A program made the translations under genes and the position numbers. Shown here piece after piece: positions 1,114 through 59,478 of a DNA stretch of 60,106 nt. The stretch is from Terramyces sp. JEL0728 (lineage: Eukaryota; Chytridiomycota; Chytridiomycetes; Rhizophydiales; Terramycetaceae). Each line of letters starts with the position of its first letter. The first letter of the stretch is position 1. The notes beneath the pieces are model-generated. The model was not told where the DNA came from, ran no database searches, and saw only the letters and a list, made by a program, of their open reading frames with translations. The stretch lies in NCBI GenBank assembly GCA_027603945.1, contig JADIIU010000082.1:1-60106 (forward strand), read 5' to 3'.

Positions 1114-3170
1114 CTAAGCAGCCCTAGCAGCATGGCCAAAACTAATAATATTATCTAAAAGTGTTGAATTTGCGACAAGCACGACCAATCGATCTGAAGC
1201 ACTAGTGTCTCCCCGCAGAGCTGCTCTTTCATACCATTCAATTGCAGTACTGAGGTCTGCAGGACAGCCAATACCATCTTCATGCAGTTTGCCGAGAGCG
1301 TACATGGCGGCAGCAGAGCCCTGCGCTGCAGCCTCGCTATACCAATGGATAGCTTCTTCTGAATTCTCCTCGCAGCCTTTTCCTTCGATATAAAGGTCAG
1401 CCAGTCTGATTTGAGCCCTGGAATGCTTTTGTTCAGCAGCTAGCTGGAAAAGCTTGAATGCCTCATCATAGTTTTGTTCCACACCTAAACCTTCATGGTA
1501 TAGAATCCCCAGGTTTGTTTGAGCCCTAAACATTAGAAATAAGCAACCAATAATTTCCTCGATTAGCACTCTGCTTGTACCAATATGCAGCTTTGGTAAT
1601 GTCTTGTTTGCAGCCTATACCTTCTTCGTACAAATGCCCCAATGTGTTTTGAGCGACGTCACTGTCACCTTTAGCGCATTGCTCAATCCAATAGAATGCT
1701 TTACCTTCGTTCACTTCAGTCCCAATGCCATTACGATAGCAATTAGCTAAATGTTAACGGTAATACGTACCTAATACCAGCTGGGCTGGATTATGTCCTA
1801 GCTTTGCAGATTCTTGGTATAATTCAAACGCCTTTTGCAGATTTAATTCAACGCCAATTCCATTTTGGTAGCCTAGACATTAGCGACCTATTACAGTAAC
1901 CTAGGGAATGCAGCGCAAAGCAATTTCCGGCGGCAGCAGATCTTTTGTACCACTCAATGGCCTTCTTTAGATCTTTTTCAGTGCCAAGTCCATATTGATA
2001 TAGATGACCCAAGTTGTGCTGAGCCCTCGATGTTACATCAAAAATACCTAGAGTGTCCTTGAACTGCAGCTTTATGGTACCAAAATGAGCCTAGAACCTC
2101 ATTTTTCTCAGTTCCAAGTCCGTTCTGGACACAGTACGCAAAATTGCACTGTGCCCACGGATATCCTTGCTCGGCAGATAGTTTGTAATATTTAGCAGCA
2201 AGAACTTCGTTTCTTTCAACGCCTTGTCCTTCTTCATGGATGTATCCCAGCGCATTTTGTGCATAGCAATTGCCATAGCTTGCGGATTTGCGGTACCAGT
2301 AGATTGCCTGGATTAAACTATACTTACTTCTTTCATGTTCTTTTGTACTCCTAGCCCTTGTTCGTAGCAGTAACCTAAATTGTACATTGAGACAGACTCT
2401 CCTTTGTGTGCTGCCAAGGAATAGTAATAAATTGCCTTGTCTTCATCTTTAGCTACTCCCAGGCCTTCTCCGTAGCAGTATCCAACCACTCCAAGTCCTC
2501 GCGGTTCTTGTAAATCTGCAGATCTCTTGTAATAATAAAATGCCAAATCCAAATCTTTTTCAAGTCCAGTTCCATCATGGAAGCATACTCCGTAGGCGTA
2601 ACATGCTGAATCAGTAACCAATTACCAGAAGGAATGTTATATTCAACTGCAGCGGTTTTTAACCATTGAACTGTCTCTGATCCTGCTTCGTTAGCCCTAT
2701 TCTTCCATTCTTCTGCTTCAACCCTGTCAATACAAACCGCTGGTCGTCCATAGTACCTCAAAAACGAGAGTCTAGCGTAAGCCATTGCACTCTTCTTTTC
2801 CGCTGCAATGAGATAGTATTTTTCAGCTTCCTTATAATTGTGTGCAACCCCAAGTCCAAATTCATAGCAAAATCCTAATAATGCCTACCATTAAGAATGC
2901 AATTACACAAGCTGGTCCGTATCCCTCAAATTCCTTTGCTGCCTTTGACAGGTATTCAACCGCTTCTGAATTATTGCCATTAAGCAGCAATTCGTTTCCT
3001 ATTTCAAACCATTCTTGCAGCTTGATCAATTTATCCCCTTCGATTATTGGAACTAAAAGTGGGTCCTCCTTTGATCCCCTTCTAGGGTGTTGTGAAATTG
3101 GTTCAGGAACAGATTCGTCGTTTATGTTACCTTCTATTGCTCCTCTTCGCTTGAAGAAATTGAAAGGCAT
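1114..3170 (-). CDS. Sel1-repeat protein, 8 exons
   Basis: Splicing seven introns (2885-2906, 2606-2625, 2308-2327, 2026-2047, 1873-1900, 1747-1770, 1526-1547; 20-28 nt) gives 632 aa in one frame. From about residue 55 onward it is an array of roughly a dozen Sel1-like repeats of the form A..WY..AA..G...A..NLG..Y..G, for example the motif NLGILYHEGLGV. Sel1 repeats form alpha-solenoid scaffolds for protein complexes; fungal examples include Skt5/Chs4 chitin-synthase regulators and Hrd3, but nothing here (no TM segment, no prenylation CaaX) assigns it to those. Start chosen at the ATG 3168-3170 (MPFNFF); the frame is open upstream to 3245. The exact function is unknown. Confidence 0.88.
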
Positions 3171-3219
3171 AGTTACAATCCAAAAAATTCCTAAACTTTT
3201 CGAGACCTTGCGTAACAGT

Positions 3220-3961: not shown

Positions 3962-4341
3962 TTAGTTGTTGGTTGCTTCCTTCAAATAGGCAATGACATC
4001 TACAATCAATATTCGAATTACCAGCACGGTCTTGTGGCTTTTTGAATCCAGCAAAGACCATCTTGGTTCCAGGAACATATTTCTTTGGGTTTTCGAGGTA
4101 GATAAACATTTCCTTTTCGTCCCATTTGACAGACTTTCCAGTCATGGCAGCAGAGTATGAATATCCGTCAGCAGTACCAGATTGTCTTTTAAATAATCCG
4201 TTAAGGTTTGGTCCAACTTTGTGTGGAGCTCCTGCTTCTACGACGTGGCATTGAGCACAGCGGGTTTTGAATAATTTAGCACCATTTGCAACGTTACCTA
4301 CAATATGAATGCAAATTTTTACCAGCTGGAATATCACCCAT
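3962..4341 (-). CDS. CYC1: Cytochrome c
   Basis: Two introns (4298-4322, 25 nt; 4000-4021, 22 nt) give a complete cytochrome c. The haem-binding CxxCH is CAQCH, and the typical [14 protein letters not shown] and the Met-ligand region [11 protein letters not shown] are all present. The tail reads [15 protein letters not shown], the expected C-terminal helix. The N-terminus MGDIPAG is split from NVANGAKLF by the first intron. It carries electrons from complex III to complex IV in the mitochondrial intermembrane space. Its presence, with a BCS1-like protein elsewhere in the window, implies a respiratory chain. Without splicing the ORF appears to have an odd N-terminus and a frameshifted tail; both disappear once introns are removed. 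Confidence 0.96.
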
Positions 4342-4613: not shown

Positions 4614-5031
4614 ATGATGCGGTGAATTTTAACATTGTCTATCACCATATCGCTTTGCTCTCGTAGTGAATATTTGTCCAGGAATATAACTCCTTTGCTT
4701 TATGTGCCAGTAAACACAACAGACCTGCTATACAAGCATATATTTCATGGTATATGGAAATATTTGCAAATATGTAGGAATTCAAAAGTGGTTAAATGTA
4801 CCTTGGAACTGTTCCGTTCCTTCCGACGAATTCCGAGTTTATCAACCCGACATAACTGCTGGTAACGTCGTACAAGCACGACTATGTTTTATTCCATTTA
4901 AACTGCGAATTTCCAATCTTGGCATGTCCAGATATTTAACAATGTCTTTGTGTAGAACGGGATCTCAAGGATCCTGGTGGATAACGATAAGGGAGACAGA
5001 GTTTATTAACCATCAAAGGCAGATTCGCTAA
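4614..5031 (+). CDS. Unresolved candidate gene in 4342-5005 spacer
   Basis: The 660-bp stretch between cytochrome c and the ADCK1-like gene holds no recognised gene. The best plus-strand model starts at ATG 4614, removes 4622-4666 (45 nt) and 4750-4777 (28 nt, GT...TAG), and then reads through to 5029-5031, overlapping the end of the convergent ADCK1-like gene by 26 bp. Fragments such as LYVPVNTTDLLYKHIFHGIQ and WWITIRETEF look protein-like, but I recognise no family and the exon borders are uncertain. On the minus strand a short candidate ending at 4396 (with a 23-nt GT-AG intron) is an alternative. Treat the model as a placeholder. Confidence 0.25.
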
Positions 5032-6682
5032 TAGTCATTCCTGGGAACATTGTTTCGAGATTTTTTCGCATGTTACTGTCCATGATGTCTTCAAATCCGC
5101 TGCCTTTGCCTTTGAAAAGGTTGCCTAAATATTGTAGCACTTGGGTAATTCTAAATGACAACGAAATCATTGCAAGTGTTGTTTGGAAAAGCAGTTTACT
5201 GAATCCTGCACGGATATTGTAAAGTATTCCACCAGCCTGCATTTTGTATGTATTACCACTTGATTGCCAATGCAAACCTGCATTTTCAGCTGCAGAGTTG
5301 GCCATTATGTTGATTCTATTGACCGGAGAACCAAGAAGTTTGTTGTTGGCTCTGACACAACTACGATTAAATTGGTTTACTTTAGGTTCCTACCAACGAA
5401 TATCAATTCTTTTGGCAGCGTCTGGGTATTCTTCAAGAATTTAGAAAGACGATTTTTTGAATTCTTTTGAGCTTCAAAAATATCGGTAATTGTGATTTTC
5501 GTTGAATGGATCGGCTTTCCAGCTTTCCAAGGCCGTGCTAGAGTAGCAGTTGCGATCACATTTAAATCTCCAATTCCCCAACTTTTGGCGATTCTTGAGG
5601 AGGTCTCAATGTCTAAACTAAACAACGATTTCCAAAATGAAGCATATTCCGTAACGAATTTTGGGCTGCACCGAACATACAAACCGTGATCTAGCAATAC
5701 TACCTGAGGCTTCCCATTGAGCTTTCTAACCAAAATATTTCCTGGATGAGGATCACAGTGGACAAACCCGACTCTGAATATTTGCTACAATTAAAGAAAC
5801 AGTACGTCTGCAAATACTTTGACAATTGTATCCATTACAAAGGCTGGAGATATTTGGTTTTTGACAAGCTCTTCCTTTTTGGCTAATGAATAGCCATCAA
5901 TCCACTCTGCAGTCATGACCCTCTTGCTTGAATAATCATGATATACTTTTGGCACATGAACCTTGTTCTTTAGATCGGTTTGGTTGATATGGTGCAGACA
6001 TATTTCAGAGTTTTTTGCCTCATTAATAAAATCCGTTTCCTACATTAAGAAAACCTACTTGGCGCAAATGGAATTCTATATAATCCGCAGACCAATATAA
6101 TGGCAGCTCAAATAGCTTTTCCAGCGCAAAAATAACTACTCTGTAGCACATCATGTCCCAATATATTTGCTTTTGGATTTCAGGTTTCTGAACCTTGACA
6201 GCAACAACTGTGCCGTCCTTCAGAGTTGCTTTATGTACTTGCGCAATGGATGCACTTGCGATTGCCTTGTAATCGAACTCTTCAAATATATCTTGCGGCA
6301 AAGTTCCAAATTCCTCCAAAAATATCTGTTCGACAACTTGCTTTTCAACACAGGGAGCATTATCGAATAGCGTTTTGAATATATTGTATTGTGGTGGTAG
6401 AACTGGAACCGATGCTATTTGTTGCCCAAATTTTATGTACAATCCGCCATTATCTTTACACAAGTTTAAAATCAAATTGGCTACTCTAGTATGCAGTCTG
6501 TTGATATCTGAATGTTCATTGAAATTCAGCTTGAAATCGATTGAAATCATAGCACCTGTAATTAGTGTCTTGACATTTCGCTGGATCGTAGAATAGTAAA
6601 AGTGCTTGTCAAATGCCCATCCTGCTACTCCTACACTGCCAATCAGAGCCAATCGTCTGGCTATTTTCAAATATCTAGTCAT
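5006..6682 (-). CDS. ADCK1/Mcp2-like ABC1 (UbiB) family kinase
   Basis: Three introns (6040-6058, 19 nt; 5785-5805, 21 nt; 5361-5380, 20 nt) give a complete protein of about 540 aa. The UbiB features are present: the KxGQ-type motif YIKFGQQIASVPVLPP, the A-rich loop ASASIAQVHKA followed by VAVKVQKP with the conserved Lys, HCDPHPGN (catalytic loop) and LLDHG in place of DFG. The N-terminal hydrophobic segment LALIGSVGVAGWAF fits a mitochondrial membrane-anchored protein. Family members (yeast Mcp2/Cqd2, human ADCK1) act at the inner membrane in lipid and coenzyme Q homeostasis. The C-terminal SPVNRINIMAN region resembles ADCK1. ADCK1 versus ADCK5 cannot be settled without alignment. Confidence 0.92.
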
Positions 6683-6802: not shown

Positions 6803-9185
6803 TTAAGCAGATTTTTTGTTATCTTCTTTCAAAGTGACAGTACGGTTTATCACCAAGTGATTCTTTTTAGAATCCTTGTCAACGCAGAAATAACCAACAC
6901 GAACAGCTTGGAATTTGAATCCCACCGGTTTATCAACAATTGAAGATTCAATCTTTGCGTGCTTGATAATTTCCAATGAGTTTGGATTGATATCGCTTAG
7001 CCAGCCATTAGGAACTTCTTCCTTCGATTGTGGGTTTGCATGGAGAAAGAGTTTGTCATACAGTCTGGTTTCAATGTCCACAGAGCTAGCGTCGCTCAAC
7101 CACTGAATATAAGTTTTTGGTTTAATTTGGCCAATTGTCTCGTAGAAAGCAGTAACTTCCACGATTTTTCCATTCTTGTCCTTTTTAACACCAGTGCATG
7201 TAATTGGATATGGGACACTAAGCAACCCAACTGATTTTCCAGGTGAGAGGCGGTAAAAGTTGGGATCCTCGTTTTCCTTAAAATCGCTGGCATCAATGTA
7301 AATGGTTCTTGTAAATTTGAGCGTACGATCTTTGTCTGAATTTGATACTTTAGCATTAATCACGCAGTCCAAAGAGAACGATGGATCCAAATTAGTGATG
7401 GTAAGTTTCAATGGTTCAGGCAACAAGAACAGACGAGGAGCAATATCATTCAGGTGATTGCGGACATAGTTTTCCAGTCTATCAACAGGGATAACAGTGT
7501 TTGCTGTTGTAACACCTAGTTCGCGAACAAAGGCATTGACAGCTTCTGGGGTGAAGCCCCTTCTTCTGATAGATGCGATGGTATACAATCTAGGATCATC
7601 CCAGCCGTCCACATGTCCATCAGTTACCAGTGCATTCAGTTTTCTTTTGGATAAAACTGTGTTGGTCAAACTTAATCGGCCATATTCCCATTGAACTGGC
7701 TTGTATAATTCAAGAGCGTCAACGAGCCAGTAGTATGATTCTCTTGAAAGCTGGAATTCAGTGGTGCACATTGAGTGGGTAATATCTTCAAACGAGTCGC
7801 AAAGACAGTGAGTATAGTCATAGGTTGGATAGATGCACCATTGCTTTGCAGTGCGGTGGTGAGGAGTGTACAAAACTCTATAGGCTACCAAATCCCAGAA
7901 TTGCGGGTTTGGGTTTTGCATATCCATCTTCATTCTAAGAATGGCCACTCCTTCAGGGTACTTTCCGTTCTTCATCTTTTCAAATTCGTCCAATGATTCC
8001 TTGATTGGCCGATTTCTGTGAACACAATCTGATCTAGGGCCTTTTTGTTCGCCTCCTCTGTGTTCCTTCATCTGTTCAGGGGTGCACACGCAGACATATG
8101 CCTTATCCTTCTTGATCAATTGAACAGCCAATTCGTATAGTTTTTGGAAATGATCTGAAGAATAAGTGATTTTGTATGGCTCAAAACCTAACCACTTGAC
8201 AGTGTCCAAAATAGCATCAAAATATTCTCCTTCCTCTGCTTCTGGATTTGTATCATCGTATCTAAGATACGTAATTCCATCATGTGCTTTTGCATATCCA
8301 AAATTGATATTGATTGCTTTGGAGTGTCCAATGTGCAAATAGCCATTCGGTTCTGGTGGAAACCGAGTCACAACTTTGCCGCCAGTTCTTTTCAAGTGTT
8401 CCTTCATTAATTTTGCATTGATTTGTGGGTTTTCACCAGGTTTATGAAGCCTTGCTAACTCTCCTTCGAAAACGTATTTCAAACTCTTTGCGATATCTTC
8501 AACTTTGTTGTTGGTTTCCACAGAGGCAGCAGGATCTGCAGCTTTAGCGGCCTTTTCCTTCTTTTTCTAATATTATATGCAAGTACCAGTGCCTTCAAAT
8601 CATCGCGTTCATCTTTTGGACCTAAATAAGACAGCAATTGTGCGTCTAACTCTTCTTTGACAAACATTGGGTTTGCCCATTTCAACTCATTTCTTAGCGC
8701 ACCCAATAAAACACCCAGCATCTGATATCTCTTGGCATCCAAATCCGCCTTCTTTTTGGCAAATAAACCCTTCACTGCTTTTGCAATTTCTTCCTTTGTA
8801 ACAACAACACCTGATGATTATTTTCAAGTTACCGACACCACACGCGACATCAAATTCCTTATCAGTGATCTTGGAAGCTTTATCGCAAAATTTGATTGCA
8901 GCTGGAAATCAACTGGAAACTACCTGAAACTTGTTCCCCGCTAGCCAATCGATCACCTGCGATCGCCTTTGCAATATATGGTAAGTGCGGAATTGTGTTC
9001 TTTGTACAGGTAGACGCCAAAGTGTAAAGTAAAGCTCCTTTGGATTTTTCTACCCCGTTGTTTGCGTTTGCATGCCCAATCACTGTTTCCAAATTTGGAG
9101 CCAACTTTTTGTTTGCTGCAGTTTCTTTTGCTTTTTGTTCCGTCAGACCAATGCCAATAAACAGCTGTTCTAGATTGTCACTCAT
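6803..9185 (-). CDS. GLN4: Glutaminyl-tRNA synthetase (cytosolic)
   Basis: Three introns (8902-8923, 8811-8832, 8567-8586; 20-22 nt) yield 772 aa. The N-terminal appended domain (LFIGIGLTEQKAKETAANKK, then KFCDKASKITDKEFDVACGVG) is the eukaryotic GlnRS N-terminal domain. The class I signature PPEPNGYLHIGHSKA (HIGH motif) and the KMSKS-equivalent VLSKRKL are intact, followed by the beta-barrel anticodon-binding domains. It charges tRNA-Gln with glutamine in the cytosol. The start is the ATG at 9183-9185 (MSDNLEQLF), in line with the family; an in-frame upstream ATG at 9200 is less likely. A 264-bp spacer with divergent transcription separates it from the VPS3-like gene. Confidence 0.96.
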
Positions 9186-9449: not shown

Positions 9450-12363
9450 ATGAAACCGTTTGTGGTTCTAAGAATTACCCTGGAACCAGTCAATAACGCT
9501 GAGATTCAATCCAATAATGCACTATCAAGACTTGCTCCTTCATTTTGGAATCAAGAACAGCAATCGGTTAAATTTGAAGGAGGTGAATTATGTGGATCGG
9601 ATCTTTACATTGGATTGTCTGATGGGACAGTAGCACATTACAGTTTAGGGAATCTGCTTGAAAAAGATAGCCACGTATTCGATTTTAAATCAAGGTTAAT
9701 TCAATGTTGCTAAAGAGAATTTCAGTTGGAAGAACTGGCTGCACAAAGATCGTAGCTGTACCATCCGAATCCAAGCTGCTCGTACTAACAGGTAATTGCA
9801 ATTCAAATATAGATGCGTCATTGAATTTCTATAATCTGGATCACAGTTTAACTCAAACAAATATTTCGCCGTTGAAAGGCGTGCTGTCTTACTGCATAGA
9901 TAGGAACATCAAGTCACCAATCGGACTCTGCGTTTCCAGCAGAAGGGGAATATCGTATTTTGAATTGGATGAAAAGCTGAATTTGAAAAAGAACGTCCCA
10001 ATGGAAGGAGGTGCGATTGTAGTTTGCTATTAATCATAGGCGATGTGTCAGTATTGGGGGAATATATGTGCTGCAGACGCCAAAGTGTATAATCTTGTCT
10101 CTTTACGAACAAACAAAATCAACCCTCTTTTCCCCTACGACTCTACCTTGTTGTCGCCTGCAGTGATCAATATATCTGAAAATGAATTTCTGTTGGTCAC
10201 TGCATCTGCGCAAGGGTTTGGTATAGGGGTATTCATCTCATCCAATGGCGATCCTATCCGAGGAACACTGCAGTGGCCAGCTGTCCCAATAGCCCTGGGT
10301 ATTTCTCGGTTGATTGTAGAATTTCAATATCCGTACATAATTTCGTTGCTAAAGAACGCTTCTGTTCAAATTCATAACCTGGAAACTCAACACTTGGTGC
10401 AGTCCATCGATTTAGCAACGGCCCATCCGCCAAAATTTATGACTGTTGCTTCCTTTCCAATGGATTTAAATTCAGAAACAGATGGGAAAACAGAATATGG
10501 AGGTGCAATTCAAGTGATAATTGGAACTGCAACAGATATATTCGGCCTAATGATGCTTCCGTGGGACGTGCAGCTAAAAGAGTTATTTGATTCCAACCAA
10601 ATAGAAGAGGCTGTTGTTCTTTTAGATAAAATGAGTAACGGCGAAGAATCCGAATCTCAGGTAAACAGTTAATTTATACTAGTTGGAACGGCGGGCACTT
10701 TTCCATGTACAAGCTGCGTTGTACTATTTGGAAAATATTAATTTCGAAAAAGCACTGGACCATTTCCAAAGAGGGAATATCGACCCTCGGTTACTAATCG
10801 CGCTGTATGATATCAAGCCAGCCAATGATCTTTTAGACATAATCGAGTCGCCTTTGGTAGAAAACGTAAGAATGCTGGAATCCATGGATAGCCTGAGTAC
10901 AATTTCCTAATATAGTTACAATGCACTTCAAGAAAGAACGAAACTTGAACGGAATAACGTCGAAACAAGAACTAATAGAGTCCGTGCACGAACAGTCGGA
11001 CAAAATGCTGATAGACTACCTGGAATTCACCCGTTACAATCAAAAGTTTCAACAGTATCGAGAAAACATCGACACTGCATTATTTAAATTATACACAAAA
11101 CATGACATTGAGCATTTATACAGCTTGATCAACGCGGAAAACCTCTGCAGCATTGCAGAACTTGAAGCATTTCTTGAAAAGCACAAGAAATTCTACGCAT
11201 TGTCCCTGATTTACAAAAACCAAAACTTGACAACAAAGGTTTTGGATTTGTGGATAAAGTAATTGGTGTTTAAACAAAGGATAAATCTCGGAGAGTATGT
11301 TGATCAGGATTTCAAAGGAATTACGGAAATGGTGGATTATCTCAAGGCTCTGGGAGATAAAGAAGTTGTTTTAAAGTACAGTAACTGGGTGTTGAGGAGG
11401 GATCCTGCTAGAGGAGTGCAGGTAATTGCTTATTCACAAGATTTTTACCCAGCGCAAGGATAATCTTTTTGAAACAGGAGAAATATTAGATTATCTGGAA
11501 ACATTTGGGTCTAAAGCGAGGAGGAAATATCTGGAACATTTGATTTTGGATAAATCAAATAATGAAAAATCTCTCAACACTAAACTTGCAATCATATACC
11601 TAGAAGATATCATCAGACTTACAACAACCCCACTAATTGAAGAGACTGAACAGTTATTCCTGCTTTCAGAAAATTACATTTCTTTTGCAAAATTCCTAGA
11701 ACAGCGAGGAGATCCTTTCTGTTTGGCCAAATTGCACTTTTTCCATTTCACTAAAAGCACAGATGTCGAGACTCGGCCAATTTTAGATATCATTGAAGCC
11801 CAAACACTGCCATTTCATTTTGAAAAATTGGCAATTTCAATCAAAAATGGCAATATTCAGGAAATAATCTCATATTATGTTCAGTATATCAAGGATCCAG
11901 TTGGGGCATATGAATATATAGTGCAATCTAACGGAAATATTGAATATATCCATCAGCTGATAGAAGAATGCTTGAAGGCAGAGTAAGAATGACTAATCTA
12001 GGAAGAACTTTGCTGAATTTGTTATCTATGTCATCAATGAACATAAATCAGACTTGGATTTAATATGGATGCTGGAAAGTTTACCGGGAAATTGGTCAGT
12101 GAGCATCGTGGAGTATATTTTGATGTGGAATACCCATAAATTCGTGCAGCGGTCGAATATGCTTAATATGAACTACTCCTTGGCAAAAGTGATAAATTTA
12201 GATGTAATTCAAGTTAATTTAGAAAAGGAAAGAGTTGCTAAAAGCGCAGCAAAGGAAGCCTGTCATGCTGGATGATATAGTGTGCGCAGTGTGCAAGCTC
12301 TCCATCTCCCCCACAAACTTTGTTGAATCGGATAGCAGGATAATACATAGCCATTGTAAATAA
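9450..12363 (+). CDS. VPS3/TGFBRAP1-like CORVET subunit (VPS39 superfamily), 10 exons
   Basis: Nine introns (9695-9717, 9792-9812, 10019-10039, 10661-10682, 10897-10915, 11259-11279, 11422-11440, 11983-12001, 12204-12222; 19-23 nt) give 909 aa. The N-terminal part is a CNH (citron homology) domain, including [19 protein letters not shown]. It is followed by a clathrin-heavy-chain-like alpha-solenoid ([29 protein letters not shown]) and a C-terminal zinc-finger-like end with CAVC and HSHC. That layout is VPS3/TGFBRAP1 or VPS39, tethering subunits for Rab5/Rab7 on endosomes and vacuoles. The IFTQR...YLEHL region is closest in my memory to TGFBRAP1. Intron 2 is 21 nt without an in-frame stop, so retention would insert 7 aa; the spliced form fits the CNH fold better. 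Confidence 0.9.
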
Positions 12364-17148: not shown

Positions 17149-17229
17149 TAAACAAACACCAGTCAATTTCTATGTGCACTGTTTGAGGACAAGTTCCTAA
17201 AAATTTTCTCAACAATCCAGAATCGCAGG

Positions 17230-18959: not shown

Positions 18960-18977
18960 ATTTATAATTGCAGTTTA

Positions 18978-20867: not shown

Positions 20868-21033
20868 TTTTCAAGTTTCAAAGAATTGTCACCCCTTAAA
20901 TATTTTTTTACAAGGGAGACCAAAGAAGGTTTCAGCAGTGACCACCATGACTCAGAAACGTACTGGGCAATCATAGGCCAAGATAAACTAGTGGAAAGTT
21001 TATTCCAATATTGCTTATAAATTAAACCGAACC

Positions 21034-23682: not shown

Positions 23683-23740
23683 ATAAACTCGCTTGATTGG
23701 TATATTTATATACAATATTTGGACCAAGCTGCCGTACCAA

Positions 23741-29140: not shown

Positions 29141-29212
29141 TAAACAAACACCAGTCAATTTCTTGTTGAGGGCAAGTTCCTAAAAATTTTCTCAACAATC
29201 CAGAATCGCAGG

Positions 29213-35672: not shown

Positions 35673-35730
35673 ATAAATTCGCTTGATTGGTATATTTATA
35701 TACAATATTTGGACCAAGCTGCCGTACCAA

Positions 35731-36747: not shown

Positions 36748-36943
36748 TCTGAGTCTTTATCATTGTCACACTACAGTCACGTGTTTGCGGACTGAGTTAC
36801 AGATCGAAATGCAGATTATACAACCTTACTGGCCCATCGATATTAATAGCCAATCTCTCTATTCACCTAAATATTCATTACATTTCTCACGTTTTGGTGG
36901 CCACTTTTAAATGTTTCAGTAGTTTAAATTTTTCACATTTTCA

Positions 36944-42179: not shown

Positions 42180-42373
42180 ATATCTATTTAAAAGTCTTTA
42201 TAAATATTTCCGTCCAATTACACAAGGAGGTATCTGCAGGATCGCGTCGATCAGGTGGAGAATTGGCAGATCCGATCCAAGGAGGTATTCCTTCCGTGAG
42301 TACATGCCAAATGACTTTCCAGCTGCTTGCTGCCAATCCAAACTTGAAAAAAAGTGGCGGTCGTTCTCTCCAA

Positions 42374-47768: not shown

Positions 47769-48051
47769 TATATTTTTTTGATTGTGTAAGAAAAAAGTTT
47801 TCCTGTCACTTTGAGGTGATTCAACATCACTTGACATGCAATATTCTCTGTTGACGGTATATTCTTCCATGTTCATCTAGTGGGAATACAACGGTAGTAA
47901 TTAACGGTTCAACATTAGTCAATCGCATTTGAAAATACATTTTACAGTTTAGTTCTTGCTGTTGTACCAATAGGGATATTTTAGTTTCGCTTAAATGTGT
48001 GGTAACCACAATATATGAGCAACAGGCACACTTGTATGAAAAACGACTTTA

Positions 48052-49926: not shown

Positions 49927-50684
49927 ATGCAAGAACTCAAACTCGCGATATGTAACGGGGATTTATCAGCAGTAAAATGGAAAATCATCAATAAAGGGTA
50001 TGAGTTTTCCATTCCAGATCCAAATACTGGAACACCACTGTTATTTGACGCGATAGAATACCACCAAAATGATATAGTAATGTACTTTCTCGATAACTGC
50101 TCTTCGCTATGGAAACTAAAAGTAGATTCATTTTCACATAGGATAATGAAGACAATACAGCGCTAATGGTCGCAATTGAAAACTTAAATGAAGTCGTCGC
50201 GCTCGAATTCATTGCTAAATATCCTAAACATATATCAACAGCCAATAAATACGGAAAGACTGCATTGCTACTAGCGTGCCAGTATGGTCTATACGATATT
50301 GCAAAGGTAAAGAGTCGATTGATTCAGGAATTATTGGAAAATGGAGCATCATTGAAAGAATGCGATTTGGAGGGATCTTATGCATTACACTAGTACTTTG
50401 CAACTAAATTAGCGCTACTTCGTGGGGAAGGTATGAGCTAATCCCACTATTGCTGGACAGGGGCTGCGATCATACGGTTTTAAATCAAAAAGGTTGGTCC
50501 GCTCTGGACTATTCATATTCTGCAAGGATACACAGCTACACAGAATGTAATTACCGCGGTAACTGTAGTGTGCATAAAGGCTCATTTGGAAAAGAAGGAA
50601 TATCCTCCTTTCAATCCAACCGAGCCGGAAAGGGTTTTGGATACAAGCTCAAAAAATATGTTTAGCGGAGAAATAAATTTATAA
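49927..50684 (+). CDS. Ankyrin-repeat protein, 224 aa, with a GC-AG intron
   Basis: Introns at 50122-50141, 50307-50327, 50393-50412 and 50522-50543 (20-22 nt) give 224 aa. Ankyrin repeats are clear: GTPLLFDAIEYHQNDIVMYF, NTALMVAIENLNEVVALEFI, KTALLLACQYGLYDIAK, GSYALHYATSWGRYELIPLL and GWSALDYS. The fourth intron starts with GC instead of GT; removing it joins DYSYS to NVITAV in frame and leads to a natural tail (HLEKKEYPPFNPTEPERVLD). Exon lengths sum exactly. Intron 2 is 21 nt with no stop, so its retention would only add seven residues. The stop codon overlaps that of the convergent thioesterase gene. A partner cannot be named. Confidence 0.8.
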
Positions 50685-51707
50685 TTTTGGCAGCAACTTT
50701 GCTTGCTCTTCACTTATTTTTGCCCTAACCACTCCTTCTTGAGCTGTAGAGAATACTAGCCTGCCGCTGGTATCAAATACTTTTCCGTTGCAAAACCCTC
50801 TGCCATTATTTGATTTTGTGCTCTTGGGTCATTCATAATTACCTCTAATTCAAATAATAGCCAATCATCTGCCCGAAATGGTTGATGGAACCACTTGATT
50901 AGCTCTATTTTACCATTGCATGATCCAAACTAGACATCATTGTAAGTGTCATTACCCTCTGTTCACTGGGCTTTGCCAGTCCAAAAGGTATCAACGCAGC
51001 ATTCAGCAGTTCGTACTACATCAATCGTTTAATACATCAGACAAGTAAGCTCCTACACATTGATGCAAAAACAATTCATCTGGTAACTCTCCTTTTGCTT
51101 TCATCCAAATTAAACTCTTGTTCTTGATATTCCCTTCCAGCGGTCTAGTATATTTGGAAGGCAGGATTTTCATCTCGATAGGAATTGGCTAATTAGACAT
51201 CTACTACCTGTTGCAGACGCATTCTTATAGAATCGTGAAAGAATTTGGCTTTTGGGTTATCCAATAATTCCCTCATCTGTTCTTCGGTTGATTTGAATTC
51301 GTGGGGAGACGGAACCGCTGGCATTTTAATCTGGAATTGGAGCAACGAAGTTTCAGGAATAGTAAACGAAGCCATCATTGAAAATATCGTCTTTCCTTTC
51401 TGCGTTGCTGTTACAGATCTTGTTGCATAGCTCCGTCCAGTTCTATCTTCTGCTACCCGAAATATAATTGGAATTTTGTGATCTCCAGGAAGCAAAAAGT
51501 AACAATGAAGGGAATGGACATGGAATTTATCGTCAATAGTCCTGGTTGCAGCTTTAAGTGCTAGTCCAATAATTTGTCCGCCAAATACTGCTCTCAATCC
51601 AACTGGAATCCAAAGTTCTTTTGAGCGAAATAGATTCACATCTAATTCTAATGTTATCATAAAGCACCTTCGACATCAATGGTTCTTTCAACCTCAGTGT
51701 CTGGCAT
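50679..51707 (-). CDS. Acyl-CoA thioesterase II (ACOT8/TES1/TesB family), copy 1
   Basis: Five introns (51648-51667, 51189-51207, 51016-51035, 50894-50913, 50823-50842; 19-20 nt) give 309 aa, a double hot-dog fold. Motifs: ELDVNLFRSKELWIP, FGGQIIGLALKAA, HVHSLHCYFLLPGD with the HSxHxYF signature, and in the second hot-dog LHQCVGAYLSDYELLN (Asp of the DQT-type site region) and SLDHAMWFHQPF. It hydrolyses acyl-CoA, typically in peroxisomes. The C-terminus ends PKL, near but not within the consensus PTS1 tripeptide, so peroxisomal targeting is plausible but unproven. It is a tandem paralog of the next gene, 28 bp away. Confidence 0.93.
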
Positions 51708-51735: not shown

Positions 51736-52756
51736 TTATAATCTCGGTTTGAATGGCAATAATTTCACTTGCTCGTCGGTCAATTTAGCCCTTATAACTC
51801 CTTCTTGAGCGGTAGAGAAAACAAGATTGCCGCTGGTGTCAAATATTCTCCCGTTGGTAAATCCTCTTCCACTATTGGACCTTGTGCTCTAAAATTAGGC
51901 TTAAAGTACTTCTAATTCAAACAATAGCCATTCATCTGCTTTGAATGGTCTGTGGAACCAAATCGCGTGATCCAGACTAGCCATCATTGTAATAGTCATC
52001 TTGCGCTGTTCAGTAGGCTTATCTAATCCAAATGGAACTAGCGCTGCATTTAATAATTCATACTAGGGTTAAATCGACATACGTCAGATAAAAATGCTGC
52101 ACAACATTGATGCAAGAACAGATTGTCAGGCAGCTGTCCTTTAACTTTCATCCAGATGAGCTGTTTATTCCTTATGGATCCGTCGGCTGGCGTAGAATAT
52201 TTTGCAGGTAGAATTTTGATTTCCATTGCAATAGGCTATATTAAACCAGGAATTACTTGTTGCAAACGCAATCGTATTGTTTCATGGTATTTCTGTTGTC
52301 TGGGATCTTCTAATAATCCTCTCATGATTTCTTCTGTGCTCTTAAAGCTATCTGGAGGAGGCACTTTTGGCATCGGCACTTGAAAGTTTAGCTGGGATTC
52401 TTCTGGCACTGTAAATGAGACCATCATTGAAAAAATACGCTTTCCATTTTGCGTAGCAGTGACTGTCCTGATTGCATAGCTCTTTCCTGTTCGTTCGCTG
52501 TACACCCTGAATACAATCGGGATAGCATTGTCTCCGGCCAAAATAAAGTAACAATGGAGCGAATGAACATGGAAATGGGAGTCGATCGTTTTAGTTGCTG
52601 CATTTAGAGCGAGTCCAATAGTTTGCCCTCCAAAAACACCTCTTGCACCAATCGGTTTGAACAAAGTTTTTGAGCGGTAGAGATTCAAATCGAGCTCTAC
52701 TATTAGCGGCGATTACTTTCAAGGTCAAGGGTTTTTTCAATAACAGTTTCTGTCAT
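51736..52756 (-). CDS. Acyl-CoA thioesterase II (ACOT8/TES1/TesB family), copy 2
   Basis: Four introns (52697-52716, 52236-52256, 52063-52082, 51889-51909; 20-21 nt) give 312 aa. It shares structure and intron positions with copy 1, except that the intron at DHA(M/I)|WFH is absent here. Motifs GVFGGQTIGLALNAA, HVHSLHCYFILAGD, LHQCCAAFLSDYELL and SLDHAIWFHRPF are intact. The end is PRL, again PTS1-like without being canonical. Sequence identity to copy 1 is moderate, so the duplication is far older than the 12-kb one. It likely differs in chain-length preference or expression. Confidence 0.93.
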
Positions 52757-53078: not shown

Positions 53079-53647
53079 ATGATTTCAATTCTCAATCTAT
53101 TCAAAAACCCTCTAATATCCAATTCGTTTAATTTACAAGTACGGTTTGCTTCCAAAAAAGCTGGAGGGTCCACATCAAACTATAGAGGGAAAAATCCAAA
53201 ATACAGAGGCTTCAAAAAGCTTCAAGGTGCAATGGTTGAACCAGGAAATATCATTCTAAGACAAAAAGGAACCAAATGGCACCCAGGAACTGATGTCGGC
53301 ATGGGAAAAGATTTTACTGTTTTTTCGCTAGTAAAAGGCAGAGTTCAAGTAATTCACTTTTAATTTAGATTCACTATGACTTGGCAAGACAAAGAAGATA
53401 TGTATCGGTAGATGATGGCACCAGGGATAAATTCTACTCTAGAGTCGAAATGAAAAGGAAACTAAGTGAATCTGTTGATCCATCGCATTACTTGACATTG
53501 GATGCTACTCAGAGATATCAATATGTCATGAACAAAGTTGAAGTCTTGACAAAATCAATGGAGCAGGAAAAAGCAGAAACCCTAAAGGAAAAACTTACTC
53601 AGCAAGGAAGAAGAAAGTTTTTGCTGAAGGACTTGACTCTTTTATAA
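53079..53647 (+). CDS. Mitochondrial ribosomal protein bL27m
   Basis: One intron (53349-53368, 20 nt) gives 182 aa. After a presequence ending near [14 protein letters not shown], the bL27 core follows: [20 protein letters not shown], then [20 protein letters not shown] and LVKGRVQIHYD. The long C-terminal extension ([20 protein letters not shown] and onward) is typical of fungal mitochondrial MRP7-type L27. It belongs to the mitochondrial large subunit near the peptidyl-transferase centre. Start ATG 53079 is preferred to the non-ATG frame upstream. Confidence 0.95.
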
Positions 53648-53669: not shown

Positions 53670-55261
53670 TTATAATAGTGGCTCAGTGTCATTCCAGTCA
53701 ACATGGAGATCTTTTCCCCATTTGGTTTGGAGACAAAGTTCAATAGGAGGAATCAAATCCCTCTTGTCATTTTCGACTCTCCTTTTGCCCAGTGACAACG
53801 TCAGTCTAATTTCATCAGTTTGGTTGGCTAGACCGTCATAGTAGAACACATCAAATACTTTTCCTTCCGTGTCACTGGTTGCAAACATGCAAGTATAATG
53901 CGATTCAGAACAAATTACAAATATCGGGTGGTGAGGTTCCTTGGCGTTCTTTCCTATCTATATCAACAAAAGTTACCTTCAGGTTTTCATAGTACTCAAA
54001 TAATGATAGCTGTCCAACTTCGCACTTGTCGCTGATCCCTTTGAACAACTGCCCTCCCAAATCAATATTTCCGTCGTGTGGATTGGAAATTGCTTTTCCG
54101 ATTAAAATGAGATTGACCATATCTTGAGTGCAATAGGAGTGTTTGCCCATTAAGCATTCACTCATCTCATCCATATCCGATCTTATTTTATCCACTCCTC
54201 TGGATAGTATTGCAGATAGCAGGAACTGGATTAGCCCGTTTCCCCTTCCATCTGTATGCAAGAACTAGAATAAACTTGGAAATACTTGGCCAATATGAGA
54301 TTCGACTGAATCTCGCAAAGCTTGCTTGTGATTCACAGTCAAGTAACCAAGGCCGTGTGTTAGATCTCCAGCCCTATTATCTGTATATTGTAATACTAAA
54401 ATTGCCCTATTTTCTCCTGCTCTCCAAATAATTTCAGTTAAAGAGCCAATCAACGCGGTTTTTGCCTGTTGAAACGTTGGTTTTAAATGTTCATTTCTAA
54501 TTAGAGATTTCAGTTACTTGACAGCCTTCATTTCCAACAAGTGCTTTACAATTACAGCTTGACATGAAGCCAACAACCCACACGGCCCTCCCTTAGATTG
54601 AATTAACCCGTATTGCAAGGCAGGCAGAGTTTGAAAATTGAATCCTTTTCCTTTCCATTCTAGCGAAAACCCTGGTTTACCAGGTTTGGGAAACAAGATC
54701 GAATTCAATTCTTTTTCGGTAATCAACGAAATTTTTGACAGTACTACGGCATGCGAAACAGACGAACTTGCTTGCAGCGTGATTTCTGTGTCTGATATAT
54801 CCAAATCGTCGAAAATTTCCACGTCCTGCAGAATAGGTTTTCTTGGTTCTTGTTTGGAGAGTTGGTTTGTGAGAGAATTTTTGGTTTTAAATTTATTTGA
54901 TTGTGCTTGCGGAAGAATCATTTCTTTTTCTTTGTCAGAATCCTTCTTTGTGTCTTTTGACTTTGCTTTGCAGGTGATGTAGTCGACAAGAACTTGTAGT
55001 TGCGTTTCAAAAGGTGCGTCTATGTTATCATTCCGTACCTCTAAGCTTGTTCTTTGCAATCTGCTTTGAAATGCCCAAATGTTTGGCCAATTCCTTTCTA
55101 CTGGAGATTGTGCTATTATAGTAATCTGGGTCCAGCGATTCAGCTTCAGATTTAAATGCTTCCAGTGTATTTGTGAATCCGCCTGCAGACAAGAATTCTC
55201 GTATTAATGAAATGCAAAGGGTATTGACAGATGGTTCAGACATGGAAAATAACGCGTTCAT
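53670..55261 (-). CDS. MINDY-4-like (FAM188B) deubiquitinase with LisH
   Basis: Four introns (55020-55038, 54497-54517, 54265-54285, 53958-53976; 19-21 nt) give 503 aa. An N-terminal LisH motif (LCISLIREFLSAGGFTNTLE) precedes a low-complexity basic linker and then the MINDY catalytic domain: LQYGLIQSKGGPCGLLASCQ with the nucleophile Cys, FLHTDGRGNGLIQFLLSAIL, and FVICSESHYTCMF with the catalytic His. MINDY enzymes prefer K48-linked ubiquitin chains. The LisH plus MINDY layout fits MINDY-4. The 3' end of intron 4 has tandem acceptors (TATAG, then ATAG); the first restores the family sequence IGKNAKEPHHPI. Confidence 0.9.
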
Positions 55262-55385: not shown

Positions 55386-58300
55386 ATGGTTAAACAATTG
55401 GGTGCATTGCAAAGTAATAGTTACTCATATCGAGCGTGATATATTTTTGTCCAGATTTTTAGCTTTAAAAATGCAATTTGTGATCTCGTCACAATTTTTC
55501 GATTATATATCTCACAACAGCGAGGACAACCCTAGAAAAAGACTGAAACAAGTCAACTTTTTACTAAAAGGTATCCTGAATATTAATCAAGAATACGGGT
55601 GCACTACAAAAATCAAAGATGATTTTGAAACAACTCCATTTCAAATTCAGTTTGCTTCAAATACAAATTCCGGTGTTTATATTGGAGATATTGAGTTTGT
55701 TGCAGATATCGATGATACCGGGGAAATTTCAACAGAATTGCCGTTGAGGATTAATATTGGAAAGGATTGTTTAAATATATACGAATATGCGAATGGGCGA
55801 TTCGACGAAGAATCGCTAGAGTTGGAAAACTATGGATTTATTGATTTTCAAGGCCACCCGCTGTTACAAGTATTTCGGGAAATGCACAACTTTCAAAATG
55901 AATTTTCAATAGGATCTACTCTGATAATCAAGCAAACCAAGCTGAAAATAGTTTTGATGATTGAAATGGACATTTCTGAATCTAAATATAATCAAAGATT
56001 AGAAATATTTTCGAAAATCTTACCAGCTTTATTCAACTGGGAAAGTGCTGCAGTGAATCCGCTCTTGAATACAGTAGTTGGAAAATTACCATATCACACC
56101 CCACTAGAGTTGTTACAGCCAACTAAATTGGTTGCAGAATTGCTGAAATTCCAAAGGCTATCATTGGAATGGATGTTATCAAGAGAAGGGGTCCAGATCA
56201 TTGACGAACAGACCAGAGTTAAATCAGCAGCAAAATCTCCAAAGCTGGAATCAGAGCAATTATTTGGAGATGGACTCAAATACATCAATTGGAAAAATTT
56301 TACAATAGCAGAAGATCAAGAGGAAAGCACCAGTGAAATGACAATTCAAGGTGGCCTTTTGTGTGATGAAATGGGGTTAGGAAAGACCTTGATGGTGCTA
56401 GCCCTGATCTTATTGAATCCACTTCAAGATTCATTTGCCTTTGAATATTTCAGTCCAAAGCTAATTAACAGTGGTGCTACTCTAATTATCACACCGATAT
56501 CTATTCTAGCCCAATGGAGAAGCGAAATTAAAACAAACGCACCACATTTGAAAGTGTTCTTGTTCGAAGGACAGGATATCAAGGCGGCCACGCTTGCGAA
56601 ATACGATATTGTCCTGTGTACCTATGTCCACTTGCAAAGAGAAATTTATGCTGCTTTGCCTGGAAGGGAAAAAACAACCAGGAGAGATACCGTTTATGAA
56701 AAAAGAACCTCCCCGTTTGTACAAATTAATTGGTGGAGAGTGGTTTTAGATGAAGCACAATTAGTCCAAGGAAAAAATAAAACGCTTGGTAGGATGCTCT
56801 AATGTAGAAATGGCATTGATGATACCTAGAATACACCCTTGGGCAGTTACTGGAACACCTGCATCCAGGAGAGGAAATTTAATGGATATTTTACAATCTC
56901 TAAATTTCATTCAAGCTGATGAATTGTTTGAAAATTTGGACAGCTTGGCGCATGTTCCTCAAAACTTTTTGAAAGGCATATTATCTTCGGTTGTTCGACG
57001 CAATATGAAAAAGGACGTTGAAGATGAATTGGTAATACCAAGCCAGCACAACAATATTATTAGACTTAATTATTCCCCAATTGAATATCAGTACTACAGC
57101 GATCTTTTGGATGAAGCTTGCACAGAAATTGGGTCAGAGCCTGCCCCGTTGGCCGGAAAACAAACAAAATCAGACTTGCACAAACACGATGCCAAGATTT
57201 CGAAACGGCTGGAAAAGATGAGGCATTGGCTATTGAGGTTGCGACAGACTTGGTATTTACTGTTGACTGTAGTTGCCATCCTCAAGTGTCAGTTGAAAAT
57301 AGAAAAGCCCTTGGCGGTAGATTGCAAAATATTGGAGAAGTTTTGGAAATCCTGATTGAAAAGTCGTACTCTACTATCATCAAGTTCCAAAGATTGAAAA
57401 TCTTGAATTACGTCGAGCAAGCACAAATCTTGGAGTAATTAATTGTAACAATAGACAGCAAAAGAATTACGACGAGCCTATTCAAAACCTTAAAGAAAGA
57501 ATTTTGTTTATTGATGATAAGCTAGTAGAATTCAAACGGCAGTATATTAATTTTGAAAAGTTTGAAAAGGAAAAGAAAGTGGAAGATGAAGTTCCGCAAA
57601 ATGATGAAGACGAATCGCCAAACATTCTCACTAAAATTACAAATAGGATGCGTGTATGGAAGGGTATGAAACACAAAGTATACTTTTACATTGCATCATT
57701 CTACAACGTCAAAGTAAGAGAAAACGAGAGCGACGAAGATGCCAAGAAAAATGAAACTCTACACTACGACTATGCTGCAAAAATTAGAGAAGATTTGCTT
57801 TCAGAATTTGTTGCAGATGTTATCAAAGAGTCCAAGAATTTGGATGCTGTTTTCAAAAAACATTCCAACTTTATGAAGAATAATGAAATGGATGTTCTCG
57901 ATCTGAGTGGAGGTATTGCAACAGAGCCTATTTTCAGCGCATTTGAAACTGTCGAAACTATTTTGGAAAAGCAATGGAAAAACATTGTTGAATGGCGAAA
58001 TAGGTTGAGATCTCTTTTGACTTCGCCATTAGAGGCTAGTAGCGACGAAAAGGACAAAGATGAACCCACTGGGACAGAATTCGAATACAGTATCATGGTT
58101 CAAGACACAGCTACAAAATACTTGGATTCCTTCATCTCTATTTTACGAGATAGAAGATTTACCATGACTGGAGTGAAGCAAACTTTTCCGTTTGGGATCT
58201 CTGCAGAGAGTGAGCTGCAAAAGAAACTTAATAATGAAAGGAAAGGGTTGGTAAACTACAATGGCGACGATTACAAGAGCTTGATTCAAAAGCTTACGGC

Positions 58301-59478
58301 AGTATTGCGGAAATCCCACCTTCCTAGAGCAGAAATTGAAATGGCAAAGATGGCGCTGAAGCACACTACCAAAGAATACGAAAAACAAATCAAAATATTA
58401 GTAAACTTGGAACAGTAGGCGTTTCTAATTTAGGGAAATTTCACTTTTCAGGCATTTGTTTAATTGTAGAGTAAAATATTACGCTCAATTAAACAAACTT
58501 TCTGATGATGTTACTGTCACTCAATTTCTAGATCCATTGCCGTATGAAATGCAAAACTTGAAGAATGAAGAAGCAGATCTGCAACGAAAGATTGTAATGG
58601 AAGAGGGTAGGATGCGATACTTGGTTGCTCTTTCCAGAGATACAGATAAAGCAGATGTGGAAACACAGTGCGCTACTTGCCAGTCTGATTTTACAAGCGG
58701 TGTACTTACTCCATGTGGACATTTTGCTTGTGAAGGTGATTTTGAGTTTATTTAGATTGTACAAAAGCCTGGCTGATACCCAAAAGAAAGTGTGCTCTCT
58801 GTACCCAACATTTTCATCCGACGGAACTGCAAAGGGTTTCGTTCAATAGAAAGAGAATTGTAAATACTGCTCCAACTTACTCTGATCAGCTATTGGAAAA
58901 AAATCAACAAATCCCAATCAAAGGGTCTAACGGTGTAAAGTTCGACTCTATTCTGAAACATATTATCATGCTTATACGGGAAGATCCGTTGGTGAAAATC
59001 ATTTGTTTTTCCCAATGGAGAGAAGTACTTGACATCTTTGCAAATATGCTTTTACAGAATGAAATTGGACACATTTCATTGGAAGGAAAAGGCTGGGATC
59101 CAGTGAATGGCAAAAAATCGAATTTCATGAAACGTAAAGGCAATTCTGTTATCGAATTCCAAACAAACCCGAATGTCAGTGTATTTATGTTGAACGCAAA
59201 GTCACAGTCGTCGGGATTAACTCTTGTATCAGCAACTCATATCTTTTTAATTGAGCCTGTACTTCAAAAAGGAGTTATTCAGCAAGGTATTTAGATCTGA
59301 CATAGCCATCAATCGAGTACATCGTATTGGGCAGGAAAAAGAGACTTTTGTTTGGCAGTATATTATCCAAAACACTGTTGAAGAAACCGTTAATCAACTT
59401 CAAACTGACGAAGACGGAAAGGAAGAACGTATTAGGAAGGAGTTGCTTCCAATGTTTTTCAAAAGAGAATCCTATTAA
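55386..59478 (+). CDS. SHPRH/Irc20-type SNF2 helicase with embedded RING
   Basis: Seven introns (55402-55420, 56789-56807, 57253-57272, 57435-57454, 58415-58433, 58736-58755, 59287-59305; 19-20 nt) give 1318 aa. The first exon is only 16 nt. SNF2 motifs: DEMGLGKT near 320 (Walker A), LDEAQL (motif II), ITPISILAQWRSEI and WAVTGTP. A helical insertion follows, with RLRQTCCHPQV as in SHPRH, then a RING finger near 1062-1100 (CATC, CGHFACEDC, CALC), then the second RecA lobe (KIICFSQWREVLDIF; SSGLTLVSATHIFLIEP; AINRVHRIGQEK). SHPRH polyubiquitinates PCNA; fungal Irc20 limits recombination. The H15 and PHD domains of human SHPRH are absent, as in Irc20. Confidence 0.94.

Follow-up and report, generated by a model that had tools for sequence, protein, structure and literature searches.

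A contig of Terramyces sp. JEL0728, a chytrid of the order Rhizophydiales and the family Terramycetaceae, has genes that are interrupted by many segments of about 20 nucleotides (nt), and it raises the question of whether segments so short can be genuine spliceosomal introns and how they would then be recognised. The whole stretch analysed, 60,106 nt in length, is called the window. Chytrids of this kind are free-living saprotrophs. A first-pass annotation had described pervasive introns of 19-22 nt across the window, and this was confirmed: 77 of 82 non-redundant window introns had these lengths, and no comparable length peak was seen with decoys or in Escherichia coli. Judged from the DNA sequence, the segments are almost certainly genuine U2-type spliceosomal introns, which have been shrunk genome-wide to near the functional minimum.

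A self-written gene finder was adopted, in which a phase-specific coding model was combined with explicit introns. It was run with a flat prior on intron lengths of 10-300 nt and end dinucleotides as the only splice signal, the coding model of the first pass being derived from plain open reading frames (ORFs); with a flat prior of 12-60 nt, end dinucleotides alone and a refined coding model trained on GT-AG gene models; and, in the final run, with splice motifs and lengths learned, a GC donor being permitted but penalised by the learned motif and AG being obligatory. The sample consisted of the window plus 10 kb from each of twenty other contigs (C1-C20), which made 260,106 bases, a non-random 1.7% of the genome assembly (15.0 Mb, 231 contigs).

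The ab initio run predicted 99 introns in the window, and 98 were kept after two hand corrections. An 18-nt GC-AG call at 58452-58469 was rejected as coding, Boothiomyces having RHLFNC there, and a 52-nt call at 1569-1620 was a coding Sel1 repeat, the real intron being 1526-1547 (22 nt). The lengths were 19 nt in 21 introns, 20 in 37, 21 in 19, 22 in 14, 24 in three, 25 in three and 115 in one. Without the 16 introns of copy B of a tandem unit described below, the five introns outside 19-22 nt were two of 24 nt, two of 25 nt and one of 115 nt, and none was shorter. The first-pass annotation had counted 83 introns (100 with copy B), namely 74 of 19-22 nt, seven of 23-28 nt, one of 32 nt and one of 115 nt. 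The same pattern and the 115-nt intron were retained, but the totals were now 82 and 98, and a 32-nt call that an earlier run of the gene finder had also made, in the gene at 45417, was replaced in the later model by a 20-nt intron at 45510-45529; these differences arose because splice sites were chosen differently. Its statement that no intron was below 19 nt held in the curated window list.

The length distribution and branch position, which the first-pass annotation had wished to see beyond the window, were obtained from the whole 260-kb sample. The learned model gave 424 introns in 140 gene models, and 383 of them were 19-22 nt long (19, 20, 21 and 22 nt in 92, 169, 82 and 40, respectively), with the branch A mostly at nt 14-15. 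The others were 15-18 nt (nine), 23-25 nt (seventeen), 31-34 nt (four) and 41-115 nt (eleven); the 15-16 nt introns on other contigs (6/424) were not trusted. At least five short introns were found in every one of the 21 stretches, and the length peak of the sample lay at or below about 25 nt, as in ultra-short-intron genomes. Intron density was 2.1 per kb of coding sequence, with about three introns per gene model and a median spacing between gene models of 135 nt. By extrapolation, about 24,000 introns would be present in 15 Mb, of which some seem to be uncollapsed copies.

Such a catalogue could be an artefact of gene modelling or assembly, in which chance GT...AG pairs or sequencing errors in coding DNA mimic short insertions; gene models made without RNA can invent introns, and two of the 99 window calls did prove wrong. 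Decoy dinucleotides, however, produced no comparable peak. With the flat 12-60 nt prior, 62 GT-AG introns of 19-22 nt were called in the window compared with 3-10 for eight decoy pairs, and 249 compared with 24-33 for seven decoys in 260 kb. When the gene finder was given a coding model for E. coli K-12 and run on 50 kb of that genome, 19-22 nt accounted for 0/27 GT-AG introns, and for 1/29 and 0/32 with two decoys. With the flat 10-300 nt prior, 72/227 introns were of 19-22 nt in the first pass, each length from 10 to 18 nt having only 0-4; in the third pass the number was 105/274, compared with 6-14 for ten decoy pairs. The introns of 101-300 nt called in that run (101/274) were rejected, the ten decoy pairs giving 109-125. 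The lower edge was sharp, with three introns of 18 nt and 84 of 19 nt in a flat-length run.

A common internal structure at near-fixed spacing also argued against chance. All 383 short introns started with GT, and the 3' end was TAG in 236, CAG in 81, AAG in 55 and GAG in 11. GTAATT was the commonest donor (70), followed by GTATTT (30) and GTAAAT (21), while GTAAGT occurred just 13 times; the exon side of the donor preferred A-A-G (0.47, 0.59 and 0.56). Donor position +5 was T in 197/383 and G in 72/383, and it may be recorded that this minority of G is found in an assembly (G000) for which the limited U1 searches described below gave no match. The branch-like TAAY with TGA variants that had been noticed close to AG was recovered as YTRAY (Y, pyrimidine; R, purine) within the last 13 nt of 270/383 short introns, compared with 5% ahead of 13,761 exonic AGs. 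A good branch motif was present in 274/403 introns of 17-27 nt, with the branch A at nt 14 (126), 15 (102) or 16 (26) and 5 (112), 6 (119), 4 (18) or 7 (18) nt behind this A. When the acceptor model was made blind to the branch region, the A of 256 YTRAY introns lay at nt 14 in 114 and at nt 15 in 89, and never at nt 13. The two distances, from 5' site to branch and from branch to 3' end, were uncorrelated (Spearman 0.06, p = 0.36, core n = 265), and the length of 19-22 nt is thus largely what the two spacings, each almost binary, add up to, the edge at 14 being sharp. The earlier suggestion that 5' site, branch site and 3' site are left with hardly any room between them can now be replaced by a measurement, usually 14-15 nt and then 5-6 nt. 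An independent lower limit for the intron as a whole (branch at 14 and tail of 4 in 1/113 vs 16/119, Fisher p = 0.0002) was considered and set aside, because 18-nt introns are divisible by three and such classes are generally under-called. The sole long window intron, in NFS1 (12832-12946, 115 nt), had the classical GTAAGT donor, mostly absent in the short ones, and its branch-to-3' spacing was likewise 6 nt.

The introns were also compared between near-identical copies. A 12-kb unit is repeated in tandem at 13862-38599 (copy A, ~13862-25892; copy B, 25863-38599, with its 16 introns in the same places), and eight 300-base samples were 97-99% identical. Genes were cut at the joint of the copies, namely the KH gene at 25863-26776 and the gene at 24954-25892, compared with 36944-38599. 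With 73 aligned columns labelled differently in the two copies omitted, substitutions at codon positions 1, 2 and 3 were 22/3427, 16/3424 and 90/3424 (third, 2.6%), whereas introns had 9/330 (2.7%), like third codon positions, and DNA between genes 17/1363. Ten indels below 200 nt separated the copies: two at copy edges (16 and 4 nt), three coding indels away from the edges (3, 3 and 9 nt), three intergenic (9, 1 and 1 nt) and two in introns, each of 1 nt. Copy edges aside, 1-nt indels were thus confined to introns and intergenic DNA, and those in introns would be frameshifts if translated. One was located in the second intron of a mitochondrial carrier identified by eye (21034-21744, minus strand; introns 21240-21258, 19 nt, and 21382-21401, 20 nt), which in copy B is 33364-33382 (19 nt); the other was in a KH-domain gene, also named by eye (22510-23682, plus strand), whose intron 23524-23544 (21 nt) corresponds to 35513-35534 (22 nt). 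The neutral divergence and the frame-breaking indels in the introns speak against an artefact.

Paralogues gave a similar result. An acyl-CoA thioesterase gene named by eye (50679-51707, minus strand; introns 50823-50842, 50894-50913 and 51016-51035, 20 nt each, 51189-51207, 19 nt, and 51648-51667, 20 nt) is next to its tandem paralogue (51736-52756, minus strand; introns 51889-51909, 21 nt, 52063-52082, 20 nt, 52236-52256, 21 nt, and 52697-52716, 20 nt), and three exon contexts were clearly common to both. Two exon contexts were common to the carrier above and a second mitochondrial carrier identified by eye (45417-46445, plus strand; introns 45510-45529 as above, 45668-45686 and 46057-46075, 19 nt each, 46199-46219, 21 nt, and 46399-46418, 20 nt). 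By exon context, intron positions were shared in both pairs and intron sequences differed. For introner-type mobile introns, which share sequence with each other, the picture was mixed. When 369 introns were compared in 20,739 pairs of equal length, no pair was identical and near-identical sequences did not form a large family, but pairs with at most three differences were somewhat commoner (79) than in column shuffles (about 32), a procedure that disrupts both branch registers. The repeated units may be uncollapsed haplotypes joined in the assembly instead of true duplications, since kinase matches elsewhere occurred as pairs of equal or near-equal score on one contig (C3, C18, C26 and C42) and a locus on C111 was 98.9% identical to one on C199 across 3.1 kb.

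Splicing restored continuous proteins. Spliced cysteine desulfurase NFS1 (12384-13794, minus strand) was gap-free over 404 residues (14-417) against the solved NFS1 5wkp, across introns of 20 nt (13105-13124), 115 nt and 22 nt (12432-12453), so the 115-nt intron was taken as real. Cytochrome c (3962-4341, minus strand) was gap-free against the solved 1ccr over residues 3-108, across its 25-nt (4298-4322) and 22-nt (4000-4021) introns. Three genes with 20 predicted junctions were compared with Boothiomyces proteins, and 16 of the junctions were ungapped; the other four were the false 18-nt call, a junction affected by that call and two next to a Boothiomyces gap. Glutaminyl-tRNA synthetase (6803-9185, minus strand; introns 8567-8586, 20 nt, 8811-8832 and 8902-8923, 22 nt each) was continuous with Boothiomyces P0002 at 3/3 junctions. 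The TGFBRAP1/CNH gene (9450-12275, plus strand) was ungapped against P0121 at 7/9; its introns are 9675-9694 (20 nt), 9792-9812, 10019-10039 and 10299-10319 (21 nt each), 10661-10682 (22 nt), 10897-10915 (19 nt), 11259-11279 (21 nt), and 11422-11440 and 11983-12001 (19 nt each). Removal of 19-21 nt introns also rebuilt domains elsewhere in the genome, SF1-HH scoring 113.5 bits compared with 66.2 + 42.9 in pieces and Slu7 289.2 bits compared with 139.2 + 104.2.

Deposited gene models of the same strain provided a further comparison. The synthetase ORF 6803-8566 (minus strand) was 100% identical to HDV01_007339, and its next relatives, in Boothiomyces macroporosus and Globomyces pollinis-pini, were at 94% and 77%. 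It was this protein that identified the strain; an 18S search gave no match. In HDV01_007339 the first intron (8567-8586) was present, while the other two were replaced by a single intron of ~113 nt with the loss of 23 amino acids (aa). HDV01_007366, the model of the SHPRH-like helicase (55471-59478, plus strand), matched four of seven introns by protein comparison; these seven are 55571-55591 (21 nt), 56789-56807 (19 nt), 57253-57272 and 57435-57454 (20 nt each), 58415-58433 (19 nt), 58736-58755 (20 nt) and 59287-59305 (19 nt). The two models together matched 5/10 true introns; one 21-nt intron was kept as 7 aa, and 12 and 4 aa were lost at two others. The deposited annotation has therefore caught part of these short introns and mangled part. 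Among five Boothiomyces proteins of three genes, 5/6 internal indels of at least 4 aa lay within 1.5 aa of Terramyces intron positions, with 2-6% expected per indel; in more distant chytrids the same test showed little of this, with 1/3 for Polyrhizophydium, 1/6 for Kappamyces, 0/2 for Globomyces (one of whose two proteins had no indels) and 0/4 for Batrachochytrium dendrobatidis. This suggests that Boothiomyces may have introns at the same places, mis-modelled likewise. Residues dropped or added at ultra-short introns were seen in HDV01_007339, HDV01_007366 and Boothiomyces P0121, P0122 and P0139; if the examined models are typical, such errors would be common in the proteomes of Terramycetaceae. 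Weighed against the decoys, the branch spacing, the neutral divergence, the gap-free junctions and the deposited models, an artefact of annotation or assembly appeared extremely improbable.

A second alternative would leave the segments real and their removal non-spliceosomal, by translational bypassing, programmed frameshifting or excision as DNA elements; short, uniform, AT-rich insertions do occur in systems of these kinds. The inspection of U2, SF1 and U2AF homologues that the first-pass annotation had proposed bears on this. One U2 small nuclear RNA was matched (140 bits) with an intact branch-recognition sequence GUAGUA. SF1 had the helix-hairpin, KH and zinc-knuckle regions; U2AF65 matched solved U2AF65 chains in two RRM domains and the C-terminal part, and a U2AF59 chain in the N-terminal part; the entire Pfam domain of Slu7 was present. 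The genes of SF1, U2AF65 and Slu7 themselves contain 19-21 nt introns. A side observation is that the SF1 gene (L042:221-1672), encoding the branch-site-binding protein, has one 21-nt GC-AG intron, GCAAGTGTTTATTAAAAATAG. Slu7 is reportedly dispensable in budding yeast when the branch and 3' site are close. Against non-spliceosomal handling stand the GT...YTRAY...AG structure with its U2-complementary branch, the presence of these factors and the same kind of ends on the 115-nt NFS1 intron, and it was considered scarcely credible. The GT-AG ends, a branch complementary to U2 GUAGUA, restoration of frame and non-coding evolution are as found in U2-type introns; with TAAY/TGAY branches, relatives' proteins that are mostly continuous and U2, SF1, U2AF65 and Slu7 all present, spliceosomal behaviour is supported.

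The third alternative accepts the introns as real and supposes that they are inefficiently spliced, retention serving as a regulatory or decay switch. When retained, 89/98 window introns would shift the frame or add a stop, and a small class of introns below 40 nt is poorly spliced in Cryptococcus according to the available part of PMC11913375. Introns divisible by three were also fewer than expected from the two spacings (45 instead of 65 of 21 nt; 2 instead of 9 of 18 nt), and several ciliates, Paramecium among them, are reported to avoid such introns or to have stops within them. This deficit, however, may be mere detection loss, because stop-free introns of these lengths are hard to call, and in-frame stops in 21-nt introns (52/76, compared with 31 and 54 in the other two frames) carried no clear signal. 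Various housekeeping genes contain several short introns each, which argues against a switch, and inefficient splicing of this kind was judged very unlikely.

Several observations weigh against genuine, near-minimal spliceosomal introns. Read-through would be possible for nine of the 98 window introns, which are divisible by three, lack a stop and have motif or homology as their sole support. Two of 99 window calls proved wrong, so errors surely exist among the genome-wide calls as well, chiefly among the nine of 15-18 nt, which include the false 18-nt call. No good branch motif was found in 129/403 introns of 17-27 nt, and in 17/256 YTRAY introns the last YTRAY lay at nt 8-12 and was followed by 8-13 nt, which are either chance motifs or a second arrangement. 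The two Boothiomyces junctions next to a gap also count here. U2AF65 scored 251.7 bits in six-frame pieces, below the NCBIfam cut-off of 310.3, although the spliced protein best matched solved U2AF65. U6 was not found among 48 scored of 1328 candidates in the 15-Mb assembly, nor U1 by Rfam model or loop pattern among 41 scored of 233; the assembly may be incomplete, and both absences are left open because the searches score just part of the candidates. A 19-nt U6 core pattern with two mismatches allowed had no match in the assembly, and a gapped pattern had one, inside an RD-rich repeat, which was taken as chance. Two look-alikes with ACAGAGA (L010:1501-1606 and L011:1501-1605, 27 bits) have neither the AGC triad nor a 5' stem that pairs, and were rejected as U6; their loci are 98.9% identical to each other over 3.1 kb. 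U6 may be absent from the assembly, intron-split or unusual.

If the segments are near-minimal U2-type introns, a compact mode of recognition can be proposed. The 5' splice site (G|GTAATT-like), the YTRAY branch site and AG almost abut, and the 14 nt up to the branch A would be nearly filled by a 5' site of 6 nt and a branch site of 7 nt. The branch site, able to pair with U2 GUAGUA, would be chosen by SF1 and U2, and the first AG downstream would be used. U1 and U2 would hardly fit on the intron together, suggesting exchange rather than co-occupancy. A polypyrimidine tract for U2AF65 would be missing between branch and AG, so U2AF65 would make little or no use of its pyrimidine binding here and would have to act otherwise, or serve the few longer introns. 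Short introns would presumably be spliced efficiently, and they were probably shortened by deletion until their recognition elements abutted.

The remaining window genes were each called by the gene model, and those that are named were named by eye. An MFAP1-like gene (1-1022, minus strand) had one intron at 434-454 (21 nt), divisible by three, without a stop and supported by motif alone. The Sel1-repeat gene (1114-3170, minus strand) had seven, the hand-placed 1526-1547, which preserves the Sel1 repeat, 1747-1770 (24 nt), 1873-1894 and 2026-2047 (22 nt each), 2308-2327 and 2606-2625 (20 nt each) and 2885-2906 (22 nt). An ABC1/ADCK-like gene (5006-6682, minus strand) had introns at 5361-5380 (20 nt), 5785-5805 (21 nt) and 6040-6058 (19 nt). 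Copy A further included a KH-domain gene (13862-14784, minus strand; intron 14000-14019, 20 nt); an unnamed gene (14821-17148, plus strand) with introns at 14965-14984 (20 nt), 15141-15161 (21 nt), and 15451-15470 and 16814-16833 (20 nt each), which start in copy B at 26957, 27133, 27443 and 28806; another unnamed gene (17284-18959, plus strand) with introns at 17458-17479 (22 nt), 17541-17565 (25 nt), and 17968-17987, 18158-18177 and 18545-18564 (20 nt each); a third (23741-24757, minus strand; introns 23810-23829, 20 nt, and 24596-24614, 19 nt); and the gene truncated at the end of copy A (24954-25892, plus strand), whose intron 25138-25161 (24 nt) is divisible by three, stop-free and supported by motif alone.

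Beyond the repeat, an ABC transporter gene (39035-41337, minus strand) contained introns at 39445-39463 (19 nt), 39872-39892 (21 nt), 40102-40120 (19 nt), 40359-40379 (21 nt), 41131-41150 (20 nt) and 41302-41323 (22 nt). It was followed by unnamed genes at 41493-42179 (plus strand; intron 41917-41937, 21 nt), 42311-43096 (plus strand; introns 42540-42558, 19 nt, 42737-42756, 20 nt, and 42978-42998, 21 nt) and 46477-47876 (minus strand; introns 46804-46822, 19 nt, and 47387-47408, 22 nt). A mitochondrial L27-like gene (53079-53647, plus strand) had a single intron at 53349-53368 (20 nt), and an unnamed gene (53670-55243, minus strand) had four, at 53958-53976 (19 nt), 54265-54285 and 54497-54517 (21 nt each) and 55020-55038 (19 nt).

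The first-pass remark that these lengths are close to the smallest known was correct by comparison with other systems, for which the available parts of the sources were used throughout. Chlorarachniophyte nucleomorphs are relic endosymbiont nuclei with genomes of less than 1 Mb, whereas the Terramyces introns come from a fungal assembly of 15 Mb. Nucleomorph introns are likewise many and cover nearly the same narrow range (18-21 bp, >800; cited in PMC10245619). Those of Stentor coeruleus are 15-16 nt; their branch A occupies nt 10 and their tail is 5 nt long (PMC9505925). GU-AG ends, canonical U2 GUAGUA, a nearly fixed branch position and a branch-to-3' distance of about 5 nt are shared, whereas Terramyces introns are 4-5 nt longer 5' of the branch, have a clear YTRAY and favour G at the exon end, and amount to about three per gene model compared with 18% of Stentor genes having any intron. 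Mikrocytid introns are similarly short and uniform (16-17 bp, 224 in Mikrocytos; PMC10245619), but mikrocytids are parasites whose spliceosome is reduced and whose intron sequences are highly conserved, while Terramyces has a loose consensus and retains SF1, U2AF65 and Slu7. Introns of 25-45 bp are reported in Paramecium (PMC5014332), and three of 23 nt in Trichomonas (PMC12316389). Among opisthokonts, the animal Dicyema japonicum also has short introns genome-wide (mean 38 bp; PMC6736024), almost twice as long on average and in a reduced parasite genome; dicyemids come near, and a claim of the first case in opisthokonts was dropped.

Fungal comparators share GT-AG ends. Blastocladiella introns are 55-333 nt (PMC2773782), and the average in Cryptococcus is 56-63 nt, where a minor class of 20-40 nt exists that is spliced poorly (PMC11913375, PMC8476143), so that some are in or near this range; lengths of 19-22 nt are the exception in these fungi and the rule in Terramyces. 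The table of PMC8476143 includes two Chytridiomycota, and no chytrid intron length is given in the available parts of PMC11649378 and PMC3569864. Among the literature matches listed, which were judged mostly by titles and beginnings of abstracts and did not cover bioRxiv preprints and most subscription journals, there was no paper on a chytrid or other fungus in which introns of this size are the rule. As far as seen, the introns have been public through the deposited annotation yet unremarked. The intron is thus of a known ultra-short kind, in a host group for which no report of such introns as the rule was found, and its geometry has been measured.

Ultra-short introns as the rule were hitherto known from ciliates, relic nuclei and reduced parasites, and they are now found as the rule in a fungus. 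It is conceivable, though we would stop short of calling it probable, that Terramycetaceae are the first fungi whose nuclear genome relies almost wholly on near-minimal introns, shorter than those found in other opisthokonts, that the early recognition set has been kept (SF1, Slu7, and U2AF65 with its RRMs, C-terminal domain and N-terminal U2AF35-binding region), and that introns are defined by an order of events unlike the textbook E and A complexes, because no polypyrimidine tract follows the branch and there is hardly room for U1 beside U2. If this different order is true, it would occur in a group close enough to yeasts for biochemical dissection. As a practical warning, residues are lost or gained at such introns in those deposited models of Terramyces and Boothiomyces that were examined. 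The results provide a concrete estimate of the smallest distances from 5' site to branch and from branch to 3' site, and a system nearer to yeast for asking how U1, U2 and U2AF share a 19-nt substrate. They suggest that a spliceosome of the animal-fungal lineage that has kept SF1, U2AF65 and Slu7 can function on introns in which about 14 nt precede the branch A and 5 nt follow it.

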